64,000 nucleotides of DNA from Fibrobacter sp. UWB11. Lineage in GTDB: Bacteria; Fibrobacterota; Fibrobacteria; Fibrobacterales; Fibrobacteraceae. Below are positions 25,953 to 62,331 of this stretch, piece after piece (the stretch's first letter is position 1; each line of letters opens with the position of its first letter). Location of the stretch: NCBI RefSeq assembly GCF_900143015.1, contig NZ_FSRT01000002.1, forward strand, positions 434,001 to 498,000, read 5' to 3'. A program made the translations under genes and the position numbers. The notes below the pieces were generated by a model that was given only the letters and a program-made list of their open reading frames with translations, did no database searches and was not told the origin of the DNA.

Positions 25953-26894
25953 TTAAGCCTTGTTCCGGAATTCCTTGGGCGTGCAACCCGTAAATTCCTT
26001 GAACGCCTGCGCAAACTTGCTGGAATTGGTATAGCCCACACGGCCTGCAACTTCGGCAATGTTGAATTTGCCATCCAACAAAAGCTGGGTGGCTTTTTTC
26101 ATGCGGTATGTTTTGAGGTACGAGTAAATGGAATCGCCGTATGCAAGCTTGAAATACTTTTTCATCTGCGTCGGGCTCATCTCGATTTGCTTGGAAAGTT
26201 CTTCGAGCGTCAGGTGCTCTTCAACGTTTTCGCGAAGGATTTCACGCAAGAGTTCCATTTTACCTTTGTACTGGCTCGGAATTTTTGCAGCAGTCTCATA
26301 CTTGGCTTCGGAATCAAGACGGCTCAAGAAGAGAATCAGCTCAAGCACCTTGATTTTGAAATAAGGCAAGCGGATATTTTTAGGGAGCCTGTAAAGTTCC
26401 GAAAAGATGTGGCTCACATGTTCGCTAGAAGGGAGCTTCAACGGGAGCGTAAGCGGTTGGATTTTCTGAATTACGGCCGCAAAGTCCACCCCCACGGCCT
26501 TGAACATATCCATAAGTTCGCTTTGGCAACGTTCCATAGAAAAGACAACAGCAATGCCGTGATAACAATGCACCGGGAATTGGAACGTCCTGCTAGAAGG
26601 CATCTGGTCCAAGAGCAACAAGCCGTTTTCTTCCATGGAACGCGGCAAGGAATTCGAATCCAGCCATTCCGAGCTGCCATTATGGCAATGTAAAACGATT
26701 AGGCTTTTCCCTTGATTTTCAAAGTTGAAGGTGAATTCTTTGAGGTGGAAATTGCTGTAAAAGACCTGCAATCCAGGCAACACATTATACACTAGAAGAT
26801 GCCCGGTTCCCGTTTTATTTTGAAGCATATAATGCGAAAAGAAATCTGTATTCTGTATTAGAATCAGATTTCTATCAGGGATAGGCTTTATCAT
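25953..26894 (-). CDS. AraC-family transcriptional regulator, PchR-like
   Basis: A 313-residue regulator. The C-terminal 100 residues hold two helix-turn-helix units: LTLEELSKQIEMSPTQMKKY and IAEVAGRVGYTNSSKFAQAF, then GCTPKEFRN. The N-terminal sensing half ends in FKIKVLELILFLSRL, the pattern of the PchR/YbtA group that responds to iron-siderophore. Its neighbours (TonB system, siderophore receptor, YbtPQ-like ABC pair) fit that group. Four tandem 19-bp units lie 18-94 bases upstream of its start, one of them a perfect TTAG-N6-CTAA, so iron repression of the activator is likely. The sub-family assignment is inference. Confidence 0.8.
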   Translation of the reverse strand: MIKPIPDRNLILIQNTDFFSHYMLQNKTGTGHLLVYNVLPGLQVFYSNFHLKEFTFNFENQGKSLIVLHCHNGSSEWLDSNSLPRSMEENGLLLLDQMPSSRTFQFPVHCYHGIAVVFSMERCQSELMDMFKAVGVDFAAVIQKIQPLTLPLKLPSSEHVSHIFSELYRLPKNIRLPYFKIKVLELILFLSRLDSEAKYETAAKIPSQYKGKMELLREILRENVEEHLTLEELSKQIEMSPTQMKKYFKLAYGDSIYSYLKTYRMKKATQLLLDGKFNIAEVAGRVGYTNSSKFAQAFKEFTGCTPKEFRNKA

Positions 26895-27020: not shown

Positions 27021-28241
27021 CTAAAAGAAAAACTTACCTTTTGCCCATATTTGTGTATTTTTCTTGTAAGTTTTAAACGTTCCACGCCTTCCCCCGAGCC
27101 AATCGCCGCCTAACGAAATCGTTATTTGGTCATTCAGGAGGTAATCTGCCGCCGGACGCACATAGAAACCGACATTATCGACGTCAAATATTCCATAAAC
27201 GGAAAGTTTAAGCGTATTGTTCAAGACTTCCTTGGAAACTCGCGCTGTAATCATGGACGTATTCTGTTCCATTCCCAACACTTCACGGTAATCCATGATA
27301 GTCTTGTGCATGTACTGAGCCATGATGGTCCAGTTATCGCCAGCATACCAATCGATACCGATTAAGGCATTGAACGAACTTCTATGCCAATAATCCATTG
27401 AATTTTTCAAGGCAATCGGTTCACCGAAATACGCCGCCACTTCACCGCGAATCACGAGTTCACCCGCCGGAATCGAGACATCGCCACCGATGACATTCAT
27501 CGGCTCGTATATTCCCTTAATCACGGCAGATTTCGTTTCCGGATCGTAGCCTGCAATCGTCACAGGCGACTTGTTGAAGGTTCGCAGCGCGGTAAGCGAG
27601 AAATCCAGATTTTCGAGGAAGAATCGCAGACGTCCGCCAACTTCACTGTTCTTTAGACGTTTTTCCGGCGTTCCGCTCAAATCCATACGCATGCCATTGG
27701 GCACAGGCATTTGCCACGGATTATCATCGCCCGTCGGAATCACGAAATACTCGGGAACCGGCACAAAAACAAGTTCTGCAGAAAAACTTTCGCCTGGATA
27801 CTTGAGGTTGATTGCATTCACGGGCACGCGGATATCATCATAATCGTTCGCCATGAATTCGGTGTAATCCATAGGCGAAATGAGGTCGGTAATGCGGAGG
27901 CCATCGGCAACGCCCCACGTAATGATTTGGCGACCCGCCTTGACTTCGAGGAATCTGCCGGCATAGTCGAAATAGGCCTCACGGAGAAACGCGCCAGTCT
28001 GATCTTTGATAAGGCTATTGTAAGCAAGGTTCATACTCGAATAGAGCGATGCCTCGCCGTAATTCGCACGCATTTCAAGACGGAGGCGTGTCCGCGAAGA
28101 CATAATCTTGTGCGGATGCTCCACCTGCAACGCGTGATACGAATCCACAAAGCCGTTCAGTTGCAGAGAAAGTTCGTCCTGCGCATACGCGGATAAGGCG
28201 AATGCTGCGGACAACAACGCGAGACTCAACTTTTTTATCAT
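27021..28241 (-). CDS. Outer-membrane beta-barrel protein (DUF1302-like)
   Basis: A 406-residue exported protein with signal peptide MIKKLSLALLSAAFALSAYA and then alternating strands rich in aromatic residues, ending in KGKFFF, a typical barrel C-terminus. FLEVKAGRQIITWGVADGLRITD resembles DUF1302-type barrels, which often accompany an RND/MMPL exporter and a LolA-like protein, exactly the two genes upstream. ATG 28241 is preceded by GGAGAAGGAT. A longer frame starting at 28292 is an artefact, because its extra residues (HARLERAS) come from a dispersed palindrome. Confidence 0.68.
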   Translation of the reverse strand: MIKKLSLALLSAAFALSAYAQDELSLQLNGFVDSYHALQVEHPHKIMSSRTRLRLEMRANYGEASLYSSMNLAYNSLIKDQTGAFLREAYFDYAGRFLEVKAGRQIITWGVADGLRITDLISPMDYTEFMANDYDDIRVPVNAINLKYPGESFSAELVFVPVPEYFVIPTGDDNPWQMPVPNGMRMDLSGTPEKRLKNSEVGGRLRFFLENLDFSLTALRTFNKSPVTIAGYDPETKSAVIKGIYEPMNVIGGDVSIPAGELVIRGEVAAYFGEPIALKNSMDYWHRSSFNALIGIDWYAGDNWTIMAQYMHKTIMDYREVLGMEQNTSMITARVSKEVLNNTLKLSVYGIFDVDNVGFYVRPAADYLLNDQITISLGGDWLGGRRGTFKTYKKNTQIWAKGKFFF

Positions 28242-28254
28242 ATCCTTCTCCATG

Positions 28255-28282
28255 GGAGATGCCCGCTCAAGGCGGGCATGAC
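28255..28282. repeat. Dispersed palindrome, short-loop form
   Basis: GGAGATGCCCGC..GGCGGGCATGAC, with compensating base changes in both arms relative to the common form. It lies between the LolA-like pseudogene and the barrel gene. Confidence 0.85.
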
Positions 28283-28357
28283 AACCGGACATTCACTGGA
28301 TCATTCGCCCCTACAGGATGACAGAGAACATCACTTACTACTGTCTACTTCCTACTA

Positions 28358-29129
28358 TCACAGTCCGCGTTCGAGCTTATTGACAGTAAAGATTTTGGAA
28401 TCGACCTGGATGTTAAATTTTGGATCGAGGAAGAGGAGTTCTGTGGAGTGTCCCGTCTGCACATTCTTCATTTCCATCTTGCCGATAGTCCAGAAGCCGT
28501 CTACCTTCTTGATGTCCGAAGAAACCATTTGACGGTGGAGCTTACCGAGCTTGTCATAGAATTCGACCTTTTCGACAACATCACAATCCTTACGGATCCA
28601 GACAAGTTTCTTGGAGAAGATTTCGCCATCCTTCTTGGGAGTCGATTCAACAACGTAGTAGTTGAAGCCATTCGCAGATTCTTCGCGCAAGAGCTTGTGC
28701 GTATCTTCATCGACATTACGTTTACCGATATCATCGTAGGTAAAGTCAGAACCCATGAAATAATCGGTCTTGGAGCTCTTACCACTGATGCGGCGAGTTT
28801 TTTTTCAGAGCAGGCAAGTAAAGCCACTTATCGTCTTCCTTATTGACATCGTCATAATTCACGGTCAAAAATCCTGTACCCTTTACATCGTTAGGATACT
28901 GGAAGAACATAATGGTCTTGGTGTCTGCACCCACGTCCATCGCATACGACGTAATCTTACGAACACGCGTGCTGCCGTTCTTGTTCACGAGCTTCATTTC
29001 CATCGAGGAAGAGCGCGTGTCGCCATCCGGGCGGTCCTTGACCTTAATCATGATATCACGGGCATTTTGTTCGGCGGCAAACAGGAACGTTGCCGAAAGC
29101 AACATTGTTGCAATAAAATTCTTTTTCAT
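28358..29129 (-). pseudogene. Outer-membrane lipoprotein-sorting (LolA-like) protein, frameshifted
   Basis: Two adjacent frames together make one protein of about 256 residues. The 5' frame (28779-29129) has signal peptide [18 protein letters not shown] and the family core, including [19 protein letters not shown] and [12 protein letters not shown]. It then runs off frame at a tract of eight A (28798-28805 on this strand) and stops. Removing one A restores [19 protein letters not shown] and joins it to the second frame (28358-28756), with FTYDDIGKRNVDEDTHKLL and the rest of the domain. Real loss, a phase-variable tract, slippage during expression or a sequencing error would all look like this. 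The intact family member would carry lipid or lipoprotein with the RND exporter beside it. Confidence 0.85.
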
Positions 29130-29131
29130 TT

Positions 29132-31510
29132 TTATTTTTCCTTTCCACTAACAGTTTCTTTTCCAAAGATATGGAATCTCTTGACGAGTACCGGCGTCAC
29201 GAGCAAGTCGGCCAAAAGGGCAGAGCCAAGGCCAATCGAGAGCACAAAGCCGAAGTTGAAAAGCATCGTGCATTTAGAAGTCATGAAGCCGCCGAAGGTC
29301 GCGCACATGATGAACGTTGTCATCACAAGGGCTGTACCGGTAGAACGGTACACACGGAGGATGGCACTGGAGTAGTTCTTGGTGCGTTCGAATTCTTCGT
29401 TCGTGTGGTTCACAAAATGAATCGTATCGTCAACAGCAAGGCCAATGACCATCGGGATAATCGTTGCACTCATCATGTCAAGCGGGAGTCCCATCCAACC
29501 GAGGTAGCCACCCACAAAGATGGCAGGGGCTACGTTCGGGATCATGCCGATAAGTCCCGTACGCAGGCAGCCAAAGACAATCATCAAGAGCACAGCGACA
29601 ATCACGATGGAAAGACCGAAGGAACGAATTTGCCCTTTCACGAGATACTGTTGCATTGTGGTGAACTGGGGAATATTACCGACAGCAGAAACCATCGCTC
29701 CTGGGAAGAGTTCCTTACCCTTCTTGGTGATGGCAGCAATTTCTTTGTCCAGTTCGTTAGAGTTGTAAGTGCTGATTTCGACCATCATACGGAGGTAACG
29801 GTAATCGTAATCAATCCAATAATTCGATTCGGAACCGCCCGCATTTTCATAAAGCAAGAGAAGCTGCGCCACCTGTTCTTCGGTATCGGGGATGCGGTAG
29901 AACGATTCATTGTTCTCGTTTACAGTACGGTTCAAATCCTTGACGATATCGAGAATCGAAGTGAGGCGCTTGCTCAGCGGGAATGATTCGATATACTTAC
30001 CGTATTCATCGAGTTTTTTCAAGTTCTCGACTTTCTTAGCATCATCGGGAGTCGGGAATTCGATTTCGAGGTCGTAAGAATAGACGCTACCGAGCGGCGA
30101 TTCACCCATTTCGAGAATTTTGCTCACATACGGAACCTTGCGGCCCATTGTGCGTTCCACATCAAAGGACGGTTCCATCTTGAGCATGCCAACAGCAGAA
30201 ATCGCAGCGACAATCGTAAAGCAAACGAGGATTTTGCCACGGTGTGTCAAAACAAACTTGCCGATACTTTCCATAAGCAATGCCATGCGCGTATCGCCAC
30301 GTTTCAAGACATTCGGATTCGGCTGTTTATCCTTACCGAAGCTGAGAAGAATCGGAGATACCACAAGCACCACCGCAAGCACAAAGCCCACGGAAATGGC
30401 GGACAAAAGACCTACGGAACGAATGGGGCGAAGCATCACTGTGAGGAATGACAACAACGCCACAATCGTCGTAAGCCCAGAGAACAACAGCGACCAGCCC
30501 GTTTCGCGAACGGCGTGGATAACCGCATCCTTGCGTTTTCCGTGCAAGAGTAATTCCCTACGGAAGAACGAGTACAAATGAATATTATACGCAATAGACA
30601 CAGCAAACGCTAGGAACGGCGGAATCATCATGTTCGTGGAATCCATGTAGAGTCCGAAATAACCCACCAAGCCAAACGTCATCAAGATGCCCGAAAGGGA
30701 GCTCAAAATCGGCGAGACGATACCGCGCAAAGAACGCGTGACAAGAGCCATCACGATAATGGCACAAATCATAGCAAGCATCATCACACGGCCCATTTCG
30801 ACGTTGATGAACTTCATCTTTTCGGAGCTCATGTACGGCATACCGCCAGCATTCGGATGGAGCGGGGCGTATTCCGGCTTGTTGATGATGTCGTAAGCTT
30901 CGGCACCGGTCTGCATATCCGGAGAAATTTTGCCTTCGGCCTTCCACACGGAATCTTCAGGGAACGGGCGGAGTTTCACGATAATGAATGTATTCTTGCC
31001 ATCGGCGCTCACAAGCTTTTTCAAGAATTCAGGCTTTGCGGCCACGCGACGCTTAATTTCGGCAATGCCAGCTTCATCCGTCGGGATTTCTTCCGGGACA
31101 ATCTGCGTGATTTCCATGCCGTCTTCGGTTCCGAGCGTGTATTCAATGTTCGTGAGCGAAGTGACGGTTCCGTTAGAATACGAAAGATTGTCGCGGAGGT
31201 CTTCGGAAAGCTTGCGCAGCAAGCGGAGATTTTCCGGCTTGTAGATATCGTCACATTCCGTGAGAACCGAAACAAAGTAATCGTTTCCGAAGAGTTCCTT
31301 GAACTTGTCCGTCTGCACAAGCATCGGGTCGCCCTCGACAAAATAGCTGTCCCAAGAAGTTTCTACATAAATCTTCTTGGCACCGATAACCGACAACACC
31401 AAAAGAACAATGAGACCCGCTAAAAATACCAATCGGTGCGAGATTAGGTACTTCGCAAAGTTCTCGAACATTTGGTTTACCTTTTCGATGTTGATTCGAA
31501 TCCGTGACAT
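29132..31510 (-). CDS. RND/MMPL-family exporter
   Basis: A protein of about 792 residues in the inner membrane: TM1 near residues 25-45 ([18 protein letters not shown]), a large periplasmic domain, five more TM segments, then the same pattern again. The second half carries [18 protein letters not shown] and [16 protein letters not shown]-type pumps without a membrane-fusion partner usually move lipids or hopanoid-like molecules. ATG 31510 is chosen because AAGGAG lies at the right distance; an upstream GTG at 31519 overlaps the exbD stop. It sits between exbD and the LolA-like pseudogene, suggesting one long reverse-strand operon. Confidence 0.85.
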
Positions 31511-31515
31511 TTTTC

Positions 31516-31908
31516 TCACTCCTTTTTCAATTCATTGACGAACTGTATATTGTAAATCTTTTCCATCTGGAGAACGTCCAACACTTCGGCAACTTTTTCG
31601 TAAGGCGTTTTCTTGTCGATTTTCAAAGCGACCGGAGCCCTCTTGTTTTGCACCGCGGCACTCTTGCTTTTCAAGAGTTCAACCGTTGCGATTTCGCCAT
31701 TGATGGCAATTTCCGTTTCGGAAAGTTCGATAAAGAAACCTTCGGAAACTTCTTGCTTGACTTCGCTTGAAGTTTCGGGCAAGAGAAGTTTAAGGACAGA
31801 CTTGTCCTGCTTAAAGACTGATGTCACCAGGAAGAAAACAAGCAACAAAAAGACACAGTCAATAAGCGGTGTCATGTCCAAAGATATGCGATGACGTCTT
31901 TTAGCCAT
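31516..31908 (-). CDS. exbD: Biopolymer transport protein ExbD
   Basis: A 130-residue inner-membrane protein with one TM near the N-terminus. LDMTPLIDCVFLLLVFFLVT includes the conserved Asp that carries protons in the TonB motor, followed by a periplasmic domain. The start overlaps the end of exbB by eight bases. Confidence 0.92.
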   Translation of the reverse strand: MAKRRHRISLDMTPLIDCVFLLLVFFLVTSVFKQDKSVLKLLLPETSSEVKQEVSEGFFIELSETEIAINGEIATVELLKSKSAAVQNKRAPVALKIDKKTPYEKVAEVLDVLQMEKIYNIQFVNELKKE

Positions 31909-32467
31909 TACGGGACTCCGTTCTTCTGGCGTCGCGCTCCTGCAAAATTTTTCCTAAATGCAGAAGCACCTGGTTTTCAACTTCGTCCTGTTCCTGCTCC
32001 ATGCGGGCGTTCAGGTAGTTAAAAGCAATCACGTGCGGGATAGCGACTACAAGTCCAAGGACCGTTGTCACGAGGGCAAACTTGATGCCCGTCGCAAAAG
32101 CGGATGGATCATCAAGACCCGAGGCCGCTATCACCGTGAATGCGTTGAAAATGCCCACCACCGTACCGAGGAGGCCAAGCATAGGAGAAATGGAAGCGAT
32201 ATTTTCGACAGTAGTAAGCCCTTTTGTCAAAGGCGAAAACGCAAGGCCAATTTCGGTGCGGATGCTTTCTGTAATGATGTGATGGTCGGTATTGCAAGTC
32301 ACCACGCGATGTATTACCTTGTCCGTCAATCGGGGTTGTACCGTTTTGTTAAATACAATCAACGAAATGACTTTCCAAATGATAATGGCATAACCGATAA
32401 AGTTTATTGCCACCAGGATGTAACCAATAGATCCGCCCTGCTTTACAAATTCAAGAATAAAATTCAT
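31901..32467 (-). CDS. exbB: Biopolymer transport protein ExbB (MotA/TolQ/ExbB family)
   Basis: A 188-residue inner-membrane protein with three TM segments. The family motif is ENIASISPMLGLLGTVVGIFNAF, and then TTVLGLVVAIPHVIAFNYL. It forms the stator of the TonB motor with ExbD. It overlaps the end of tonB by one base and the start of exbD by eight. Confidence 0.92.
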   Translation of the reverse strand: MNFILEFVKQGGSIGYILVAINFIGYAIIIWKVISLIVFNKTVQPRLTDKVIHRVVTCNTDHHIITESIRTEIGLAFSPLTKGLTTVENIASISPMLGLLGTVVGIFNAFTVIAASGLDDPSAFATGIKFALVTTVLGLVVAIPHVIAFNYLNARMEQEQDEVENQVLLHLGKILQERDARRTESRNG

Positions 32468-33186
32468 TACGATCTCCCTGCATTAAGTTTGTACTGGATT
32501 GGAATTTCTATCCGCCAGCGTTCTTTTTCTAAAAGTTTTGGAATGGGGTCGAATTTGCCCATATTTGTAACGGCTTCCAAAGCGCTATTGTCCAAAGAGG
32601 AATAGCGGCTCGATTCCGAAACTTCAATCTGTTCAATCTTGCCATCCGCAAGGATGGTGAATCTCACGCGGACAGTGCCTTCCTGCTTCAAGCGTTTAGC
32701 TGTCGCCGGGTAGTCCTTGATCTGTTCCAATTGTTTCTTGAGCGAACGCAAGTAGGTGCGCGTTACCATTTTCAAGGAATCCGGCGATGGTTTTGGAGGT
32801 GCCTTGGCTACAGGAGGCGTTGGCGCTGGTGGTGCTGGTGGTGCTTCTACAATGGGTTCTGCGGTAGCCACGGGCGCTGTTTCCACGATGGGGGGCGGAT
32901 CCGGTTCTGGAGGTGTTTCTTCAACCGGTTTTTCAACGACTTTCGGGATTATTTTGCTCCGTACGACTTTCTTTTCAATTTTGGGCGCTTCAGGAGGTGG
33001 GGGAGGTGGCGCAATATAAACCTGTTCCGCATGAATTACGGGGGAATCTGCGCGATGTACAGGAATTTCTTTCTTTTGGAATAGCGGATTTAAGAGGGTT
33101 GCGACATGGATAAGGATTGCAACAGCAAGCCCGACATAAAAGGCCTTGTTGAAAGACAGTGCTGAGTAAATCCGTTTGCGAGTCAT
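32467..33186 (-). CDS. tonB: Energy transducer TonB
   Basis: A 239-residue protein with an N-terminal TM (about 13-33, AFYVGLAVAILIHVATLL), a Pro-rich periplasm-spanning part (IAPPPPPPEAPKIEKK, then EPDPPP and PPAPPAPTPPVAK) and the C-terminal TonB domain (GTVRVRFTILADGKIEQIEV, later KFDPIPKLLEKERWRIEIPI). It transmits inner-membrane energy to the TonB-dependent receptor. It is first in a tonB-exbB-exbD-RND operon. Upstream at 33231-33292 lie both candidate iron-control elements. Confidence 0.93.
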   Translation of the reverse strand: MTRKRIYSALSFNKAFYVGLAVAILIHVATLLNPLFQKKEIPVHRADSPVIHAEQVYIAPPPPPPEAPKIEKKVVRSKIIPKVVEKPVEETPPEPDPPPIVETAPVATAEPIVEAPPAPPAPTPPVAKAPPKPSPDSLKMVTRTYLRSLKKQLEQIKDYPATAKRLKQEGTVRVRFTILADGKIEQIEVSESSRYSSLDNSALEAVTNMGKFDPIPKLLEKERWRIEIPIQYKLNAGRS

Positions 33187-33520: not shown

Positions 33521-35554
33521 CTAAAGCACCCACAGCGCAATACGGTAAACTATAAACGCCAAGCCGAGCGAAATTGCAAAGTAGTAACCCGCAATCGCAA
33601 GCATCCACTTAAGGGAATGCGTTTCACGATACGTTGTACCCATTGCAAGTACACAAGGGATATTGAACATCGATGCAAAAATAAATGCAAGAGCTTCCGG
33701 GATGGTCACCACGGCACGCATCATTTCGCCAAGATTTGCACCCGCCGCATTACGGGCAACAAGCGAGAACGCATCCGTTGTACTCGAGAAGACAACGCTC
33801 ATCACGCCAAGCGACGCTTCCTTGCTAAAGATTCCGCCGATATACGAAATAAACAGTTGCCAGCGCATACCGAAAATCTGCGTAAACGGTTCAATCGCAT
33901 TGCCAATGGTGTAAAGTACGCTATGTTCCACATTTCCATCTTTCGAATACGAAATAAGCCAGAACAAGAGGGACACAAACCAAATAACTGCAATCGCCTT
34001 CTTGAAAACCGCCCAGACATTGCGAGCAACCGTCTTGAGCAAAATTTTCCAATGCGGCTTGTGGTACGGCGGGAGTTCCATAATCATGCCCACGCGTTCA
34101 TTCACCGGCATCAGCTTGTTTCCAAAAAGTTTAGACGAGAGCCAGAACGATGCAAAAATCATCGCTACATAAACCAAGCCAAACAGCGGAGCCGCCGAGC
34201 CAAAGAAAACGGAAGCAAGGAAAAGCACTACGGCAACTTTTGAGCCGCACGGGATCGACCACAAAAGCACCATCGCAAACAAGCGCTGTCCACGTGTATC
34301 TAGCACGCGCGTACCGCAAACGGCGCCGCCCGTGCAAGCAAGCCCCGATACCAAAGGCATAAACGCCTTGCCATGCAATCCAAGCCGTGAAAGCCACGAA
34401 TCAAACACATACGAAGATCTCGCCAAGTAGCCCGTATCTTCCATCAAGCCAAATGTCACGAGAATCGCAAAGACAAAGCTCATCATGGCGACAGTCACAG
34501 ATAGACCGCCAATGATAACGCTATTGATAAACGACGCTACAGAGGGCCACCAGCCAAGCGATTCACAGACACGATTCACAAACGGTTCCGCACCCCCCTG
34601 AAGGCCAAAGCAACCCATAATAATCGGAACTGCGATCATCATGCTTACCGCAAGTGTAATCACCAAAATGAAGAACGCGACAAACTTTCCCCAAATGCGA
34701 TGCGTTGCAATCTTATCAAATCTGGAAAGTTTTATTGTTTTTTCGTTAGCCGAAGCGACTTCGCGGAGCGTTTCCGAAATAAAGCGGTACTTCGCTTCGC
34801 CCGTGATAAGCCCGCCATTCGAGCCTTCTGCCTCAAGGACATTCTGAATCTCTCGCCAAAGTTCCGGATTGATCGCTGCTTTAACTTCTGCACAGACAAG
34901 CACATCATTTTCCAAGAGCTTTGACACAATCCAGAACTTTTCACGATTACCGAAGTCTAGGTAATCAAGCAGCTTTTCGAGTTTCAAGATTGGCGAGGAT
35001 TCGCGACCATCCGATACATTCGCCAAAGCTATTTCACGAATTTTTGTCGATGAAATTTTAGCAGGTTTTTCAACCGCCCTTTTCAAAATTTCAAAGAATT
35101 TCGAATAGCCTTCTAAATCCGATGCGGTAAAGCCAAGCACCGGAATGTTCAAAAGCTTTTCGATTTTCTGGACGTCAATCTTTTTGCCCTTCTGCTCGGC
35201 CACATCCATCATGTTGAGCACAAGCATCACCGGGCTTTTCACGCCCGCAAAATCTGCAAGCATGTAAAGGCTGCGTTCCAGCTGCGACGCGTCAACGATA
35301 ATGCAGACAATGTCGGCATAACCATGCTCAATGTAAGTACGCGTCACAACTTCTTCGGCAGAGTTTGCCGTAAGCCCATAGCTACCCGGCAAATCGACAA
35401 CGCGGTAAAGTTCTTCGCCCTGCGTAAAAAAGCCTTCCGCCCTTTCCACCGTTTTTCCGGGCCAGTTACCGACATGCTGATGCGAACCCGTCAATGCATT
35501 AAAAAGAGTGGACTTGCCGGAATTCGGCTGTCCCAGCAAAGCAATCGTTCTCAT
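33521..35554 (-). CDS. feoB: Ferrous iron transporter FeoB
   Basis: A 677-residue inner-membrane Fe2+ transporter. The N-terminal G domain has G1 LLGQPNSGKST, VGNWPGKTVE, G3 VDLPGSYGL and G4 LNMMD. A helical switch domain follows, and then the TM region with two gate motifs, LVSGLACTGGAVCGTRVL and IFASMFNIPCVLAMGTTYRE. The length is normal for the family. Its ATG overlaps the feoA stop by four bases. It lies downstream of a TonB receptor and propeller lipoprotein, so ferrous iron may be released from a siderophore and imported here (inference). Confidence 0.93.
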   Translation of the reverse strand: MRTIALLGQPNSGKSTLFNALTGSHQHVGNWPGKTVERAEGFFTQGEELYRVVDLPGSYGLTANSAEEVVTRTYIEHGYADIVCIIVDASQLERSLYMLADFAGVKSPVMLVLNMMDVAEQKGKKIDVQKIEKLLNIPVLGFTASDLEGYSKFFEILKRAVEKPAKISSTKIREIALANVSDGRESSPILKLEKLLDYLDFGNREKFWIVSKLLENDVLVCAEVKAAINPELWREIQNVLEAEGSNGGLITGEAKYRFISETLREVASANEKTIKLSRFDKIATHRIWGKFVAFFILVITLAVSMMIAVPIIMGCFGLQGGAEPFVNRVCESLGWWPSVASFINSVIIGGLSVTVAMMSFVFAILVTFGLMEDTGYLARSSYVFDSWLSRLGLHGKAFMPLVSGLACTGGAVCGTRVLDTRGQRLFAMVLLWSIPCGSKVAVVLFLASVFFGSAAPLFGLVYVAMIFASFWLSSKLFGNKLMPVNERVGMIMELPPYHKPHWKILLKTVARNVWAVFKKAIAVIWFVSLLFWLISYSKDGNVEHSVLYTIGNAIEPFTQIFGMRWQLFISYIGGIFSKEASLGVMSVVFSSTTDAFSLVARNAAGANLGEMMRAVVTIPEALAFIFASMFNIPCVLAMGTTYRETHSLKWMLAIAGYYFAISLGLAFIVYRIALWVL

Positions 35555-58653: not shown

Positions 58654-61611
58654 TTAATCTTCAAATCGACCTTTCTTGTTTGCACTCATACCGAAGAGCT
58701 TGAGGAAGGCAAATGTCGCCACAAGCACAACAATCGAGCACACAATCCAGAACTTGTCGCCGCCCACCGGAATCTGGTAGAGGAGTATCGACACCGCCCA
58801 GGCAAGCACCGTCTGGACTACAGCCATCAACACACCAAGGCCAAGGCCGATTTCGCGAACGACCACGCCCATTGCAGCAAGGCAAGGCACGTAGAGCAAG
58901 ATAAAGATCAAGAACGCAAACACCTGCCAGTTAAATCCGTCTACCGGATTTCCATTCTTGTCCGGGTTGTGGAAGTAAGAACGGAGGTTGGCATAGATGT
59001 CAGCAGTTTCACTCAAGTCACCTTCTTCGAGAGCGCCGATTTCATCTTCGCTCAGCGTGAGGCCAGCAGCAGCGAGCTTTGCAAACACCTCTTCGCGAGC
59101 CTTGTCGGCACCTTCATCTTCGCTGAAGGTCTCGATAGAAGCATATTCTTCACAAGTAATCGCCTTGGCTTCAAGAATCTTGTCGAGCGTGACCTTCTTG
59201 AGTTCTGCAGCATTCTGGGCTTCAAGTTCGCCAGAAGTTCCGAGAATATCCGTAAGAGAACCAAAGACTTCGCTCAAGTTTTCAGGAATCGTGCCAAGGG
59301 CTTCCTTGAATGCACCGAGAATATCCGGAGCACCGCCTTCTTCCTCTTCTTCGGCCGGGCATTCATCCACGCCAGCGATAAGGGGCTTTTCTTCGGCAGG
59401 GGCTTCAGCAGGCTCAGCGACCTTATTTGAGTCGGCTTCAGCAACCGCGCTATCCGCGACAGTTGCAGAGTCAACCACAGCCACCTTTGCAGAATCTACT
59501 ACAGATACGTTACCTTCTGCGTCGGGGCGTTGCGGGGTGTCCCCGCTAGAAGGGGTAGCGGATGCCGTGTCAGTGGCAGGAGCGAGGGGAAGGCTTTCCC
59601 CACCACCTATTCTTTCGTCTTTCGTCTGTAGCGAGCCACCGGCGAGCGTTCTTTCGTCTGACACGTCGCCAGGACCCGCCATGGAATACAAGGAGTTCAT
59701 CGTACCAATCACAGCTTCCTTAGCGAGGAGACCCGTGAACAGCGACACAGAAGCAGGCCAGTTGTTGGATTCAACGCCGAACGGTTCAAAAATCGGAGTA
59801 ATCGCTTTACCAATTGCAGAGAGCAAGCTGTTTTCGGAATCCCCATTGCCAGCCGTGAATTCCGTTTCCGTCTTAATCTTGGATTCGTCAATCACGACAC
59901 CTTCGGGGAGCGGGACTTCCTTTTCATCCTGCACCATAGCGTAGCCTTCTTCGCTCTTCACGATTTCGGTCTTTTCGCCATTGATTTCAGTATAAAGTTT
60001 GTCCACAAAGCCAAAACTGTTGAGGAAGCCAAGAACGGCAACGGCAATCGTAATCACCTTACCCGCACGGATAATGTAATCGCGCAGACGTAGCCAAGAA
60101 TGGATCATCAGCGATTTGAATTTCGGCAAGTGATACGGCGGAAGTTCCATTACAAAGTTGCTCGCTTCGCCAACGAACAAAGAGCGACGGAGAATCAAAC
60201 CGTAGACAATCGCGAACAAAACACCCGCAAGGTAAAGCGCAAACACAACGGTTCCTGCCTGAGCCCCAAAGAATGCCGCAGCAAACAACGCATACACCGG
60301 AAGGCGAGCGCCGCAGCTCATGAACGGCACAAGGAAAATCGTGAGGAAACGTTCACGCTTGGATTCGAGCACGCGAGAGCCCATAATGCCCGGCACACCG
60401 CAACCGAAACCGACCATCATCGGCACGAATGCACGACCCGGAAGCCCGAGGAATCTCATAAAGCGGTCAGCGACAAAAGCCGCACGCGCCATGTAACCCG
60501 AGTCTTCCAAGAAAGAAAGGCAGAGGAACATGAAGAAGATGACCGGGATGAACGTCGAAACCGTCTGGATACCGGCGCCGATACCGTCGGCGAGAATGGC
60601 GGACACAAAGCCCGGCGCATGGAACACATCCGTGAGCAAGTAACCGAGGCCATCCACAAAGATGGCACCAAACAGCACATCAAAGAAATCGATGAATGCA
60701 GAACCAATCGTGACTGCAACCCAGAAGACCAGGTACATCACCAAGAGGAATATCGGGAGCGAAGCCCAGCGATTCAAAAGCACAGAATCGAGCTTGTCCG
60801 ACCAAGTTCTCTTGGAACGGTTCGAAAGAATTGTCTTGCCTGCAATTTCGTGAGCCAAGCTGTAGCGCGCATCTGCCATTGCAAATTCGCTTTCTTCGTT
60901 CAGCATCTTAGTCACTTCAGCCTTGTTAATCTTAACCTTGGCTTCGGCAAACTTATCTGCATAGCTCTTTTCGTTTCCCAAGTACATGAGCGAAACCCAG
61001 CGGGCATCCGTTCCCAAAAGCTTTGCAACCGGTTCAACCTGCGGTTCCAAATACTTCACGGCATTTTCGACATTCTCGCCGTAATGGATAGCCTTCGGAG
61101 TCATCTTCTTGCCAGCGACAACATGAGCCATTTCGCTGATGAAGTTCGTGATACTTCTTTCGTTCACAGCCGAAAGCGGAATCACCGGCACGCCAAAACG
61201 TTCAGCAAGGACATCCAAATCCAAGTGCAAGCCGCGTTTTTCTGCAATGTCGATCATGTTTGCAGCAATCACCATCGGGATCTGCATATCGACAAGCTGC
61301 GACGTCAAGAACAAATTGCGTTCGATATTCGAAGCGTCAATAATATTGACAATGAGGTCTGCTTCGCGAGTGAGCAAGTAGTCCACAGCGGCGCGTTCGT
61401 CTTCGGCATTCGCAAAGAGAGCGTAAGTACCCGGCAAGTCCACCACGCGAATGTGCTGGTTACCGAGTTCAAAAAAGCCTTCTTTCTTTTCGACAGTCAC
61501 ACCCGGCCAGTTACCAACACTCTGGCGAGCACCCGTAAGAGCATTAAATAGAGCCGTTTTACCACAGTTCGGGTTACCGGCAATAGCAATAGTAAAAAGC
61601 TTCGGAGCCAT
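58654..61611 (-). CDS. feoB: Ferrous iron transporter FeoB with a large insertion
   Basis: A 985-residue Fe2+ transporter. The G domain has G1 AGNPNCGKTALFNALTG, VGNWPGVTVEKKEG, G3 VDLPGTYALF and G4 AANMID. The TM region has gates GFGCGVPGIMGSRVL and LLYVPCLAAMGVVVREIG. Family members are usually 650-800 residues. Here about 245 residues separate KEAVIGTMNSLY (near 637) from FNWQVFAFLIFILLY (near 890), where about 70 is usual. The insertion starts with repeat-derived-looking sequence (APATDTASATPSSGDTPQRP), has VVDSAKVAVVDSATVADS repeats, and then an acidic helical part. Its start overlaps the feoA stop (TAATG). Confidence 0.92.
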   Translation of the reverse strand: MAPKLFTIAIAGNPNCGKTALFNALTGARQSVGNWPGVTVEKKEGFFELGNQHIRVVDLPGTYALFANAEDERAAVDYLLTREADLIVNIIDASNIERNLFLTSQLVDMQIPMVIAANMIDIAEKRGLHLDLDVLAERFGVPVIPLSAVNERSITNFISEMAHVVAGKKMTPKAIHYGENVENAVKYLEPQVEPVAKLLGTDARWVSLMYLGNEKSYADKFAEAKVKINKAEVTKMLNEESEFAMADARYSLAHEIAGKTILSNRSKRTWSDKLDSVLLNRWASLPIFLLVMYLVFWVAVTIGSAFIDFFDVLFGAIFVDGLGYLLTDVFHAPGFVSAILADGIGAGIQTVSTFIPVIFFMFLCLSFLEDSGYMARAAFVADRFMRFLGLPGRAFVPMMVGFGCGVPGIMGSRVLESKRERFLTIFLVPFMSCGARLPVYALFAAAFFGAQAGTVVFALYLAGVLFAIVYGLILRRSLFVGEASNFVMELPPYHLPKFKSLMIHSWLRLRDYIIRAGKVITIAVAVLGFLNSFGFVDKLYTEINGEKTEIVKSEEGYAMVQDEKEVPLPEGVVIDESKIKTETEFTAGNGDSENSLLSAIGKAITPIFEPFGVESNNWPASVSLFTGLLAKEAVIGTMNSLYSMAGPGDVSDERTLAGGSLQTKDERIGGGESLPLAPATDTASATPSSGDTPQRPDAEGNVSVVDSAKVAVVDSATVADSAVAEADSNKVAEPAEAPAEEKPLIAGVDECPAEEEEEGGAPDILGAFKEALGTIPENLSEVFGSLTDILGTSGELEAQNAAELKKVTLDKILEAKAITCEEYASIETFSEDEGADKAREEVFAKLAAAGLTLSEDEIGALEEGDLSETADIYANLRSYFHNPDKNGNPVDGFNWQVFAFLIFILLYVPCLAAMGVVVREIGLGLGVLMAVVQTVLAWAVSILLYQIPVGGDKFWIVCSIVVLVATFAFLKLFGMSANKKGRFED

Positions 61612-61896: not shown

Positions 61897-62331
61897 TTAT
61901 TTTCCTTTTTTTGCCTTTAAAGCATTCGCCTTTTTCGCAACAGCGCCTTCATTTCCCCTCTTCATGAAGTCTTCAATTGTCGAAAGAGTTTCAGCAGAAA
62001 GAATATGCTCCATGCTGCAGGCGTCCTTGTCAGCAATAGCTTCGGAAACGCCCAGACGGATCAAAAAACCCTTCAAAAGAATATGGCGGTTCAGCACATC
62101 GGCAGCCGCCTTACGCCCTTCTTCGGTGAGTTCCACACCGCTATAGGGTTCCTGAGTCACAAGGCCCAGCTTTTTAAGTTCAAGAATCGCTTTTGCCACA
62201 GAAGGCATCTTCACAGAAAGGGCGGCGGCAATATCCTTGACACGGGCAATCCCGTTCGCCAAGCGAAGCATGTGCACCATTTCCAAGTAGTCTTCGAGAC
62301 TCTGGCTGAGCTTCACGTGATTGTTTTCCAT
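61897..62331 (-). CDS. DtxR/MntR-family metal-dependent repressor
   Basis: A 144-residue regulator. The N-terminal HTH is SQSLEDYLEMVHMLRLANG, VKDIAAALSVKMPSVAKAI and LGLVTQEPYSGVELTEEG. The dimer and metal domain contains NRHILLKGFLIRLGV, ACSMEHILSAET and a basic end. It lacks the SH3 domain of longer DtxR proteins, so it is MntR-sized. It is first in the dtxR-feoA-feoB operon, with three TTAG-type sites just upstream, and is the natural candidate to bind the TTAG-N6-CTAA sites of the window. Confidence 0.9.
   Translation of the reverse strand: MENNHVKLSQSLEDYLEMVHMLRLANGIARVKDIAAALSVKMPSVAKAILELKKLGLVTQEPYSGVELTEEGRKAAADVLNRHILLKGFLIRLGVSEAIADKDACSMEHILSAETLSTIEDFMKRGNEGAVAKKANALKAKKGK

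Follow-up and report, generated by a model that had tools for sequence, protein, structure and literature searches.

The LolA-like gene of Fibrobacter sp. UWB11 is read in two frames that meet at a run of eight adenines (A8), which raises the question of whether the gene was inactivated by a recent mutation, is intact in the cell and only miscalled in the assembly, or is still expressed, or switched on and off, by way of the run itself. The gene lies within a cassette of putative envelope-transport genes, in a window of 64,000 nucleotides (contig C2, positions 434001-498000), the whole stretch of DNA that was analysed. The features of the cassette and its surroundings are the following (window coordinates, strand, description).

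25953..26894, (-), AraC-family regulator, downstream of the cassette, open (PF12833)
27021..28232, (-), DUF1302-type outer-membrane barrel, open (PF06980, E 1.4e-13)
28358..28797, (-), 3′ portion of the LolA-like gene, read in the second frame (PF17131 positions 40-184; dN/dS 0.02-0.04 against relatives)
28798..28805, (-), A8 tract, site of the frame change (tract sequence, compared with relatives)
28782..29129, (-), 5′ portion of the LolA-like gene, encoding the signal peptide and the first part of the mature protein (PF17131 positions 2-39)
29132..31519, (-), MMPL/RND-type inner-membrane transporter, open (PF03176, E 6.6e-43)
31516..33186, (-), ExbD, ExbB and TonB genes, upstream of the cassette, open (PF02472, PF01618, PF03544)

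The interrupted LolA-like gene

The A8 run (window 28805-28798, minus strand) splits the LolA-like gene into two frames, and one extra base in the run is the cause of the frame loss. The upstream ORF (28779-29129) encodes 116 amino acids with a signal peptide, enters the tract in one frame and terminates at a stop located shortly beyond it, at 28779-28781. The second frame is open from 28798 to 28358, and the protein ends there in ERGL. The profile PF17131 (LolA_like) has a curated cut-off of 30 bits in Pfam, and membership in the family requires most of the profile length. The upstream part matches profile positions 2-39 (E 1e-11, 45 bits) and the downstream part positions 40-184 (E 5e-47, 160 bits); the two matches adjoin without overlap, and the gene belongs to the LolA_like family. 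The A8 site is a frameshift far beyond chance, since it was the sole homopolymer frameshift at the strict threshold when 464 kb of the genome were scanned by codon usage.

The initial annotation was correct in its coordinates and in its description of the frameshift, including both frames and the position of the tract. Its statement that family sequence is present on both sides of the break is borne out by the adjacent profile matches, as well as by the single frame found in all the relatives described below. The rest of the operon is intact, as it had also proposed, with the MMPL, ExbD, ExbB, TonB and DUF1302 barrel genes all open. The MMPL frame encodes 799 amino acids in UWB11, and mostly 795-830 among relatives.

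Comparison with related loci

A search with the downstream half of the gene covered 80 genomes of the genus and found matches in 46, UWB11 itself included. The fifteen nearest Fibrobacter orthologues are 92-97% identical over the full length, and in each the frame runs uninterrupted for at least 260 codons. The tract site in these orthologues reads AAGAAGA, AAAAAGA or AAGAAAA, and this mixture of AAG and AAA lysine codons indicates that no tract is kept there for switching. Including Bacteroidales, a single frame crosses the site in 109 of 109 related loci. The longest A run at the site is A7, present in frame in four of the 109 loci, which are more distant. A run of eight or more was found in none of them and is private to the UWB11 genome; likewise, none of the 109 loci keeps the frame break. 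Because all of these loci are single-frame and none carries A8, neither the run nor the break is conserved, and the conservation expected of a slippage-dependent gene is unsupported. A frame broken in one genome while the orthologues of its close relatives are intact, as found here, is the pattern of a recent pseudogene. An exact-pattern scan of the genome contigs for the tract region gave no match.

Both halves of the gene are under strong purifying selection, as in the relatives, and decay after the break is absent. Compared with the fifteen relatives, the downstream half shows dN/dS values of 0.018-0.042 (median among the relatives, 0.037), and the upstream half values of 0.03-0.15 (median among the relatives, 0.075). 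The upstream half reaches its higher values against relatives whose signal peptide differs; against its two closest relatives (L011 and L013) the range is 0.03-0.05. Since neither half has decayed, the break is either very recent or not present in the DNA.

Other homopolymer frameshifts in the genome

The codon-usage scan at homopolymers covered 464 kb of the genome, and later 1.14 Mb of sampled stretches. The scan recovered about 71% of planted indels at the loose threshold, and a stricter threshold lowered this to about 32%. In the 464 kb, five sites were detected at the loosest threshold, and the extension to 1.14 Mb revealed no additional clear case by eye. Two clear homopolymer frameshifts are counted in the approximately 1.14 Mb sampled, one in the LolA-like gene and one in an ORF6N-domain gene, a lower bound given the limited sensitivity of the scan. 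Three further candidates were rejected: at window position 61906 a DtxR-type regulator gene meets FeoA in a normal junction, and reading of the three frames showed a gene start at L127:17147 and a gene junction at L135:6334.

The frameshift in the ORF6N-domain gene is located at L120:2045 (G000:C1, approximately 102,045), on the minus strand, and is also an A8 frameshift. In other species, intact homologues of this gene span about 315 codons in one frame and reach 98% identity over the C-terminal part; the frameshift fits ordinary gene decay. Two +1 events at A8 would also agree with a low rate of homopolymer error, of a few per genome.

Part of contig C2 was compared with its counterpart in a relative (G046), which paired 377 proteins over 107,039 aligned residues (about 321 kb of coding sequence). 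Among these proteins, a clear homopolymer frameshift was seen in the LolA-like gene alone, and the other six split matches proved to be gene starts or junctions when their sequences were read. The reverse comparison showed no clear internal homopolymer frameshift. The many frameshifted genes expected from systematic homopolymer error were not found, and widespread error of this kind is ruled out by the two scans and the comparison with G046. The assembly is good.

Long homopolymers are depleted in coding sequence. Synonymous codons were shuffled within 566 long ORFs of the sampled 1.14 Mb; the figures are approximate, as antisense ORFs are possibly included. Coding A8 runs numbered 36 against 48.6 expected, and runs of A9 and longer 4 against 23.5. 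Similarly, 48 coding T7 runs were observed against 77.9 expected, and a single run of T9 or longer against 14.4. Long A/T runs look harmful in this genome, which would therefore be ill-suited to tolerated slippage or contingency tracts. Neither mutS nor mutL is interrupted, in UWB11 or in five relatives, and a mismatch-repair mutator was rejected as the cause.

Origin of the frameshift

The initial annotation left four readings side by side, namely a fresh pseudogene, an assembly error, slippage-dependent expression and a contingency switch; the first two survive, and the last two are disfavoured. A fresh mutation is the leading explanation, with assembly error close behind, and recoding and phase variation are unlikely. 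We give about an even chance to a genuine and very recent +1 expansion of the A run by replication slippage in this one strain, which would have inactivated the LolA-like carrier completely or nearly so. A synonymous AAG-to-AAA change would first have produced a pure A run, with both lysine codons AAA, and replication slippage would then have added one A; the order of these events is the one we infer. The DNA of the strain would truly carry A8, and the frameshift would cost the MMPL/RND, LolA-like and DUF1302 cassette its LolA-like product. The absence of decay is, however, equally expected from an assembly error, and among assembly errors the gain or loss of one base in an A run is common. 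That the frame is intact in the DNA and the eighth A a mistake of the consensus is accordingly a real possibility, although one that we hold at somewhat less than even. It agrees with a +1 change in a homopolymer, private to one assembly and lacking decay on either side, and with the second +1 frameshift of the same form in the ORF6N gene within the sampled 1.1 Mb, which a low error rate would explain. Against it, homopolymer frameshifts are rare (one per approximately 321 kb of orthologous coding sequence), and coding sequence keeps its frame through dozens of A7 runs and about a dozen A8 runs. Illumina sequencing seldom miscalls A8. Fibrobacter isolates were Illumina-sequenced (PMC6291624), which also counts against an error, although this may not be the platform of the present strain; for some isolates (five), PacBio sequencing and HGAP assembly were used as well (PMC6291624), which favours an error.

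That transcriptional slippage or ribosomal frameshifting on A8 rescues the gene, with a useful amount of full-length protein, is improbable. Long A runs do promote slippage of polymerase and ribosome (PMC1088944, PMC4256274, PMC4363877), a +1 slip on this run could be followed by re-pairing of a lysine tRNA, and the RNA near the site folds slightly better than shuffled sequences (z -2.1). The net change required is nevertheless the loss of one A or the gain of two, which is the rare direction: in E. coli transcription, insertions overwhelmingly prevail in A/T homopolymers, and less than 1% of deletions begin in homopolymers (PMC5574713). No upstream stimulator was noticed by eye, and the lack of a conserved tract or break in the 109 relatives also stands against rescue, as functional slippage is signalled by conserved organisation according to Baranov et al. 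(PMC1088944). Known functional cases have longer runs or such a conserved organisation (PMC1088944, PMC4256274). The genes described by Baranov et al. 2005 (PMC1088944) resemble the LolA-like gene in being read in two frames at an A run with homologues that are single ORFs, and genes of this type are "normally considered as pseudogenes" (PMC1088944). However, their runs are of nine, where slippage is expected, and the run of eight in the LolA-like gene needs the rare direction. Similarly, a frame change at an A run interrupts tssM of Citrobacter rodentium (PMC4256274), a gene that functions only with both of its products; frameshifting is also used by the tssM of a Yersinia pseudotuberculosis cluster (PMC4256274). 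In tssM of C. rodentium, slippage adds A's to a run of eleven, whereas the A8 of the LolA-like gene is not conserved and needs the opposite change. Traces of full-length protein from the A8 gene are possible, since ribosomes may slide both forward and backward on long A runs (PMC4363877).

A phase-variable contingency locus, in which a change between A7 and A8 switches the transporter cassette on and off, is the least probable of the four readings and very improbable in itself. An intragenic homopolymer in an envelope gene is the right kind of sequence for such a switch, but eight A's are short for a contingency tract. The conservation of the tract at the site that a contingency locus would show is missing: more than one hundred relatives are intact and none has eight A's, the fifteen nearest orthologues with their mixed lysine codons among them. 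The depletion of long coding runs (A8 and longer) and the intact MutS and MutL point in the same direction. That A8 acts as a live site in this one strain, either leaky or switching on and off, is hardly more probable; some cells would then have the LolA-like carrier and others lack it, so that envelope transport would vary in a fibre-degrading gut bacterium.

Consequences for the cassette and its paralogue

The same genome possesses a second LolA-like/MMPL/DUF1302-like cassette, complete and intact, at L137:8891-13539, in which the MMPL and barrel genes were named by reading and gene order, without a profile search. The order of the genes is LolA-like, MMPL and barrel in the paralogous cassette, and MMPL, LolA-like and barrel in the broken one. 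The two LolA-like proteins share 40% identity over the downstream part. Given the intact second cassette, the loss of the first LolA-like carrier may be softened, and thus tolerated.

We take AmeABCD of Castellaniella defragrans to be the nearest characterised arrangement. Similar to the Fibrobacter cassettes, it comprises an HAE3 RND transporter, a periplasmic protein of the LolA superfamily and a DUF1302 outer-membrane protein (PMC6394551). Growth on monoterpenes is impaired when a transposon inserts into ameB, the LolA-type gene (PMC6394551), and by this likeness the loss of the LolA-like carrier would probably disable the first cassette. Unlike in AmeABCD, the LolA-like protein of Fibrobacter fits PF17131 much better than DUF1329, and an ameC-type gene is absent among the Fibrobacter cassette genes.

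Whether a fresh mutation or a sequencing slip, the break in the LolA-like gene is an ordinary event, which matters little beyond the annotation, where the gene is provisionally to be marked as frameshifted. If it is real, the strain would be a natural near-null for one of its two LolA-like/MMPL/DUF1302 cassettes, and handy for comparison when the substrate of the cassette in Fibrobacter is sought.

Other features of the window

A palindromic 31-base element is located between the LolA-like and barrel genes (window 28255-28285). About twenty exact or near copies are present elsewhere in the genome, and the element is probably a dispersed intergenic repeat or a terminator. The window also harbours two different FeoB-type genes, at 33521-35554 and 58654-61611; the latter follows a DtxR-type regulator and FeoA, and carries a long acidic insert. 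Across Fibrobacter, the MMPL gene falls into two classes, with 94-96% against 65-68% identity, which gives an allelic mosaic at window 29066-31519. The signal peptide of the LolA-like gene likewise occurs in two types, and the mature part is 92-97% alike throughout. From these sequence patterns, a recombination breakpoint is likely near the start of the LolA-like gene.
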